NCBI GenBank assembly: GCA_024762925.1
Contig: JANTGM010000057.1
Coordinates: 1-35,268, forward strand
Length of the DNA stretch: 35,268 nucleotides
Origin: Kofleriaceae bacterium
GTDB taxonomy: Bacteria > Myxococcota_A > Polyangia > Haliangiales > Haliangiaceae
Reading direction: 5' to 3'
Position numbers and translations under genes: made by a program. Under the pieces are notes generated by a model. That model was given only the letters and a program-made list of their open reading frames with translations, was not told where the DNA came from and made no database searches. Shown here piece by piece: positions 29,561 through 31,022 of this stretch; positions within the stretch are counted from its first letter, which is position 1; the number at the start of each line of letters is the position of its first letter.

Positions 29561-30019
29561 ATGAGCCGCTCTTCTCGCACCAAGGCCAGCATTGGTCTCT
29601 TTGCCATGGCCCTTCTTCTGCCAGCGTGTCGCAAGTCGCCGACCACGAAGCAAATCAAAGGATTCGCGGACAAGGTATGCGCGTGCAAAGACGCAGCGTG
29701 CGCGGAGGCTGTGCAGGCCGAGTATCTCGAGTGGTGGAAGGGCAACATGCGGGCCCGTGGCTCGGAAGGTGATCGCAAAGGCGTCGAGAAGGCCATGCAG
29801 CGGTATGCAGAGTGCCACTTGGCCTTGGTGGGCCCAAAGACGGTTGCTGCCCCACCCGCAGCTCCTGTGCCAAAGGTCAATCTCCAGCGGCCAATGCCCA
29901 CGCCTGAACCCGCCTCGGTCGCTCCTGGCACAAGGGAGGTGGCACCTTCAAAGGCAACGAGCGAGACTGTCGACCAGGCTGCCACCCCCCCGGTTCCAGC
30001 CAAATCGCCAGCTCCATAA
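29561..30019 (+). CDS. Small lipoprotein with Cys-rich core
   Basis: This 152-residue lipoprotein (lipobox LLPAC, Cys23) has a short helical domain with four cysteines (DKVCACKDAACAEAV, then RYAECHLAL) and a proline/alanine-rich tail from about residue 92. I do not recognise a named family. The order and charge suggest a disulfide-stabilised envelope protein. It lies 24 bases after wzy and 129 bases before the selenoprotein gene, so it may be a substrate of that thiol oxidoreductase. That link is inference only. Confidence 0.7.
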   Translation: MSRSSRTKASIGLFAMALLLPACRKSPTTKQIKGFADKVCACKDAACAEAVQAEYLEWWKGNMRARGSEGDRKGVEKAMQRYAECHLALVGPKTVAAPPAAPVPKVNLQRPMPTPEPASVAPGTREVAPSKATSETVDQAATPPVPAKSPAP

Positions 30020-30148: not shown

Positions 30149-30967
30149 ATGAAACGTACTGGTCTCTTCCTATTGTCCGCAGTAGCCGTATTCGGCTGCC
30201 AACGGGACGATGCTCCGCTGAGGAAAGAGGTTGCAGAACTTAAGGCTGGCCAAGAGAAGATCTTGGATGCCATTAAGAACATGCCAAAAGCTGGCCCTGC
30301 TGCCGCTCGTCCTCAGCGCCCTCAGCGTCCACGTCCTGATGCCAATTCCGTCTACTCCGTCAACATCAACGGAGCCCCGTTCAAGGGAGCAAAAGACGCC
30401 AAAGTTACAGTTGTTGAGGCGTTTGAATTCGCCTGACCGTTTTGCCAGAAGGTCGGTCCGACCATCCAACAACTCATCAAAGATTACGAAGGCGACATCA
30501 AAATTGCCTACAAGCACTTTGTGGTTCATCCACAGAGCGCAACAGAGCCAGCTCTGGCCGCTTGCGCAGCAGGACTGCAAGGCAAGTTCAGCGAGATGGA
30601 GAAGGGAATCTGGGAGAAGGCGTACGCAAAGCGCGACTTCAAACCAGAAACACTTGAAGCCATTGCAAAGGATGTCGGTGTCGACATTGCTAAGTACAAA
30701 GCTGACAAGGACGGCCCTTGCAAGAAGCAAATCGGCCAAGATCAAAGCGATCTTCGCAACGTCGGAACTTCGGGAACCCCGGCGTTCTACATCAACGGCC
30801 GCTTCCTCTCTGGTGCACGCCCAGTTGACCAGTTCAAGAAGCTGGTTGATGAGGAGCTAAAGAAGGCTAACGATCGCATCGCAAAAGGCGAAGCTTCGGT
30901 TGCTGACTACTACGACAAGTTCGTTGTTAAGAAGGGCCTCAAAAAGCTCGCTCCGCCGAAGAAGTAA
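30149..30967 (+). CDS. DsbA-like selenoprotein lipoprotein with U-P-F-C active site
   Basis: Read through the in-frame TGA at 30434-30436, this is one 272-residue protein. It has a lipobox (AVFGC, Cys17), a short coiled segment, a Pro/Arg linker, then a thioredoxin/DsbA fold: DAKVTVVEAFEFA, Sec96-Pro-Phe-Cys99, QKVGPTIQQLIKDY, a helical insert, and GTSGTPAFYING with the cis-Pro at 211. Homologues normally have C-P-x-C, so TGA sits exactly on the first active-site cysteine. The downstream frame runs 176 codons without a break. A SECIS-like stem-loop follows the TGA. The protein is expected to act as an envelope thiol-disulfide oxidoreductase with a low-pKa selenol. A strong terminator ends the unit. 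Annotation pipelines would split it in two. Confidence 0.85.
30434..30436 (+). other. In-frame TGA predicted to encode selenocysteine (Sec96)
   Basis: The codon replaces the first cysteine of the CxxC motif, with Cys99 (30443-30445) retained. Both flanks are in the same frame, and conserved DsbA-like sequence continues on either side. The stop is followed by C. Confidence 0.85.
30437..30466 (+). promoter_or_regulatory. Bacterial SECIS-like stem-loop
   Basis: A perfect five-base stem pairs GGTCG (30451-30455) with CGACC (30459-30463), closing a GTC loop at 30456-30458. The loop starts 19 bases after the TGA and begins with G followed by U. Bacterial SECIS elements for SelB typically have an apical loop with a G in the first two positions, about 16-37 bases after the UGA, so this fits. 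It lies inside the coding sequence and encodes part of KVGPT. Confidence 0.75.
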
Positions 30968-30988: not shown

Positions 30989-31022
30989 AACGCCGGCATC
31001 TTCGCGATGCCGGCGTTTTTTT
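30989..31022 (+). terminator. Strong Rho-independent terminator after the selenoprotein gene
   Basis: Arms AACGCCGGCATC (30989-31000) and GATGCCGGCGTT (31006-31017) pair perfectly around TTCGC and run into a T-tract. The cysteine synthase gene starts 17 bases further on, so it needs its own promoter or readthrough. Confidence 0.92.

Follow-up and report, generated by a model that had tools for sequence, protein, structure and literature searches.

The window, a stretch of 35,268 nucleotides, carries on its forward strand a gene for a DsbA/DsbG-like protein that mechanical ORF calling divides into two ORFs, 30149-30436 and 30521-30967. Starting with ATG 30149 and closing with TAA 30965-30967, the frame comprises 272 codons and has a sole interruption, the TGA at 30434-30436. 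The initial annotation had described two in-frame ORFs with only this TGA between them, and the sequence confirms it. The region 30149-30967 is one gene and not two. The features of the locus are the following.

30149..30967, + strand: DsbA/DsbG-like thioredoxin-fold (seleno)lipoprotein gene, 272 residues with TGA read as Sec (read-through translation)
30149..30199, + strand: putative signal peptide of the lipoprotein type with a lipobox-like VFG-C17 (from the sequence and from homologues of equal architecture)
30434..30436, + strand: TGA codon, read as Sec (U96), first residue of the UPFC active site (homologues with Cys or TGA; selA/selB/selC/selD in the genome)
30448..30466, + strand: bacterial SECIS-type hairpin (in all 26 TGA copies, not in Cys copies; AGG/CGN contrast)
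30989..31017, + strand: strong terminator-like (intrinsic) hairpin, a 12 bp stem followed by a T run, directly 3' of the read-through stop

Comparison with the nearest congener gave dN 0.14 and dS 2.5 (the latter near saturation) for the part 5' of the TGA, and dN 0.16 and dS 1.44 for the part 3' of it. The low dN with respect to dS on either side indicates that purifying selection acts on both parts of the gene as protein. A search of the window against Rfam gave no match. The neighbours are an O-antigen ligase-like gene, a small gene at 29561-30019 and cysK. They are kept in one congener only, so that synteny gives no pointer to function or partner, and no conserved operon was found outside the genus. 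The small upstream gene codes for a putative lipoprotein with a Pro/Ala-rich C-terminus and no Pfam or NCBIfam match; it adjoins the selenoprotein gene in the congener as well (52% identical).

Protein architecture and active site

The read-through product has the sequence ...EAFEFA-U96-PFCQ... around the TGA. As the initial annotation had it, the TGA takes the first Cys position of CPFC, and the second Cys (C99) and the cis-Pro (T210-P211) are intact. Domain matches run across the TGA (PF13462, 2.5e-19; PF01323, 7e-18), and so does the alignment to the best solved relative, DsbA 4pwo, while the 95-residue N-terminal piece alone has no domain match. Homology to two structures of the DsbA family, PDB 4pwo and 7unn, extends over residues 61-240 (E 7e-20 and 1e-19); both have Cys where the window protein has Sec. 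The cis-Pro motif is invariant in the 59 homologues aligned; the invariance of residues 96 and 99 is partly by construction, since the homologues of the tree were chosen by their (U/C)xxC motif. Two further cysteines, C139 and C191, are each conserved in 53 of the 59 and probably form a second disulfide. The domain match, the (U/C)PxC active site and the cis-Pro place the protein in the DsbA/DsbG-like group. Structure prediction from a three-sequence alignment was poor (pLDDT 41), and the assignment to the DsbA/DsbG-like thioredoxin fold rests on sequence homology.

The lipobox-like MKRTGLFLLSAVAVFG-C17 was recognised by eye only, and it is from VFG-C17 only that the product would be taken as membrane/lipid-anchored. 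The signal peptide is followed by a charged stretch (approximately residues 22-43), a Pro-rich linker and the DsbA-like domain. The charged stretch is probably helical, appearing as a helix in the low-confidence model only.

Codon 96 among homologues

Homologues were present in 94 of the 95 genomes searched. Mapping by tblastn gave TGA at codon 96 in 26 distinct copies from 21 genomes and TGC or TGT in 34, numbers that are neither a census of TGA against Cys, the TGA-bearing copies having been fetched deliberately, nor counts of independent events, as these copies are related. No codon besides TGA, TGC and TGT appeared among the mapped homologues; Cys or TGA, as anticipated in the initial annotation, is thus what all those sampled have. 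Both congeners carry the TGA, at 78% and 62% identity. Three loci (L036, L038 and L051) were flagged as containing TGA, yet they have Cys at codon 96 and their TGA lies elsewhere.

A clear tRNA-Sec was found in 19 of the 21 genomes with a TGA copy versus 37 of the 74 others (p 0.0008), "clear" meaning a score of at least about 62 bits, as ordinary tRNAs also reach 40-50 bits. The two genomes with a TGA copy and no clear tRNA-Sec are assemblies just 73% and 80% complete. At L050 (1042-2790, G032:C22), in a genome 80% complete and with no clear tRNA-Sec, two adjoining DsbA-like genes each have a TGA and a hairpin.

The hairpin downstream of the TGA

The hairpin reported in the initial annotation was recovered in the window, starting at the 15th base 3' of the TGA. 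It has a stem of 5 bp (GGTCG/CGACC, 30451-30455 with 30459-30463) and the loop GTC (30456-30458), the stem being extended by two more pairs (GA/TC) beyond an A.A mismatch. The distance from the TGA to the loop is 19 nt. All 26 TGA copies have a hairpin located 12-30 nt 3' of the TGA, with the form GAGGGTC-RGTNN-GACCCTC or one close to it and the loop (G/A)GT(C/T)N between the GAGGGTC and GACCCTC arms. The mean number of pairs formed was 7.3 of 8 possible in the TGA copies versus 4.1 of 8 at the equivalent place in the Cys copies. Changes that preserve pairing were seen in the stem (T-A to C-G, G-C to A-U and G-C to G-U), and sliding the partner strand lowered pairing from 92% to 26-58%. The column-shuffle control for covariation was moderately exceeded (15 of 500). 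Among copies that have Arg five codons after the Sec site, this residue is encoded by AGG in all 20 with TGA and by CGN in all 15 with Cys (Fisher p 3e-10, a nominal value as the copies are related). This contrast in synonymous codons, the strongest of the signs, indicates that the hairpin is selected as RNA.

The folding results were divided. The segment 30446-30472, the part that would stay free with a ribosome at the TGA, gave the hairpin described (-7.1 kcal/mol, z -1.9; 8 of 200 shuffles did equally well). When folding began at the TGA itself (42 nt, 30434-30475), as the initial annotation had proposed in order to look for the apical loop, the best structure was another one and its stability was not above that of shuffles (z -0.6). 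Folding stability on its own is therefore modest evidence for the hairpin. The model of bacterial SECIS elements (bSECIS) specifies a loop of 3-9 nt with G in the first two loop positions, a stem of 4-16 bp, a loop located 16-37 nt after the TGA and a minimum free energy no higher than -7.5 kcal/mol (PMC13188914). The window hairpin lies within the constraints on loop, stem and spacing (GTC, 5 bp and 19 nt), and its -7.1 kcal/mol is just short of the energy threshold; the stems of the homologues are longer.

Selenocysteine machinery in the genome

The genome to which the window belongs (6.79 Mb in 246 contigs, 98% complete) was searched for selA, selB, selC and selD, and all four were found. 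SelB scored 331.8 bits, over the cut-off, in an open frame of 649 aa, SelA 579.5 bits and SelD 373.7 bits. The tRNA-Sec scored 67.6 bits and has the anticodon TCA (ARAGORN). The SelD gene (G000:C125:12235-13164, L017) has an in-frame TGA in its active-site motif, GG-U-AAK, and SelD itself is likely a selenoprotein here. A gene for formate dehydrogenase alpha (G000:C26:38805-40832, L090) has TGA at the classical Sec position, CAAT-U-HAPTVAGL. Thus the Sec machinery serves other genes too. The exact hairpin pattern of the window gene was found nowhere else in the genome, and its remaining selenoprotein genes therefore rely on different ones. In the formate dehydrogenase gene, the motif CAAT-U-HAPTVAGL is followed by GGCCGGTCTGGTC.

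Decoding of the TGA and function of the product

We consider it highly probable (about 0.93) that the TGA at 30434-30436 encodes Sec in a lipid-anchored DsbA/DsbG-like envelope protein with a UPFC site. The Sec reading is very well supported by comparison because the machinery is in the genome, relatives have TGA at codon 96 and the hairpin accompanies TGA only. SelB and tRNA-Sec would decode the UGA owing to the hairpin directly downstream, which has a small loop with G as its first base. The initial annotation had proposed a lipid-anchored selenium-dependent thiol oxidoreductase. Its selenium part stands, by virtue of machinery, homologues and hairpin; the anchor is suggested by the lipobox only and the activity by the UxxC. 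The Sec-Cys pair (U96-P-F-C99) would most likely perform thiol/selenol-disulfide exchange on envelope proteins, and the family features (UxxC, cis-Pro and C139/C191) point to an envelope enzyme of thiol-disulfide exchange. Two oxidising partner families (VKOR and DsbB) and a reducing one (DsbD-type) are encoded in the genome. As all of them are present, the partners do not decide the redox direction, and oxidation, isomerisation and reduction would all be compatible with them.

Sec is commonly used in peroxidases. A selenoprotein whose main activity was that of a peroxidase, or of a reductase acting on oxidised small molecules, and not that of a DsbA/DsbG-type disulfide oxidoreductase or isomerase, would find a DsbD-type reductant in this genome. 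However, the UxxC with its resolving Cys, the cis-Pro and the DsbA domain are features of exchange enzymes and there is no match to any peroxidase family, so that we regard this function as unlikely, although it is the alternative to be taken most seriously. Much less probable is that the TGA is a true stop, leaving a pseudogene or a truncated protein of 95 residues, whether or not translation restarts at GTG 30521. The two ORFs of standard ORF calling agree with a stop, but both parts of the gene evolve as protein, TGA and hairpin recur at the identical codon in 26 copies, and the 95-residue piece corresponds to no domain. An ORF starting at GTG 30521 would, besides, contain neither the active site nor the beginning of the thioredoxin fold. 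We give slightly less credit still to a reading of the TGA as Cys or Trp through a suppressor or a reassigned code. The homologues with Cys at codon 96 could be cited for it; against it are the complete Sec machinery, with a tRNA-Sec of UCA anticodon, the site-specific hairpin confined to TGA copies and the adjoining genes that are open without TGA read-through. A sequencing or assembly error that turned TGC or TGT into TGA might be suspected in an assembly as fragmented as this one (246 contigs), but it is hardly credible and in practice refuted by the 26 copies in 21 genomes, with TGA plus hairpin in both congeners and 18 more genomes.

With the TGA read as Sec, standard annotation splits a selenoprotein gene in two and thereby misses it. 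The corrected gene would bring a selenoprotein clade of many members into a lineage that the reviews consulted leave unmentioned.

Relation to known selenoproteins

The high novelty implied by the initial annotation does not hold. DsbA-like and DsbG-like selenoproteins with UxxC were reported from the Sargasso Sea in 2005 at the latest (PMC1088965), and a 2026 review lists both types, the DsbG-like one under NF041057 (PMC13188914). The Sargasso Sea DsbA-like selenoprotein shares with the window protein the PF01323 domain, the UxxC and a bacterial SECIS downstream; its family was assigned to COG2761, and the likeness is drawn from the published description (PMC1088965). NF041057 (Rcas_1661 family thioredoxin-like (seleno)lipoprotein) is alike in being a lipoprotein of thioredoxin fold with a UxxC that has Sec or Cys. 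It is also the best NCBIfam match, with 79.3 bits over residues 41-235, below its curated cut-off of 190 bits. Since neither the window protein nor any of the 95 relatives reaches this cut-off, they form a clade separate from NF041057.

We found a similar protein in another phylum, in the Nitrospirae MAG locus L071 (1312-2067). It is 35% identical and has a lipoprotein-like N-terminus, a charged spacer and the motif SDYQ-U-PFC, its TGA occupying the same position. It differs in having no conserved GAGGGTC hairpin downstream and is below the NF041057 cut-off too. A plasmid search returned distant Cys-type relatives only, and nothing was retrieved by searching the literature for myxobacterial selenoproteins. 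Compared with the known UxxC selenoproteins, the less familiar aspects here are the lineage and the repeated switching between Sec and Cys, in many cases among paralogues in tandem.

Sec/Cys switching and tandem paralogues

To place the Sec and Cys states on the tree of the 59 homologues takes 9 changes, and well supported branches demand at least 6 of these; the tree does not show their direction. Sec and Cys paralogues are often neighbours, as in L046, L048, L053, L059, L061, L062, L063 and L064. Changes of this kind among close paralogues, tracked by the RNA signal, provide a natural series for the question of why envelope thiol enzymes use selenium. One may speculate that the tandem paralogues are functional pairs, that the nearly invariant hairpin is a portable cassette for Sec insertion, passed on by gene conversion, and that selenium supply tunes the handling of disulfides in the envelope, a scenario that we hold to be quite doubtful.

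In each of the eight tandems, the Sec copy has the hairpin and adjoins one or more Cys copies that lack it. Open frames of 900-1000 residues with several DsbA-like domains in a row were also detected (for example in G082:C147, G087:C251 and G034:C151) and are widespread in the class.
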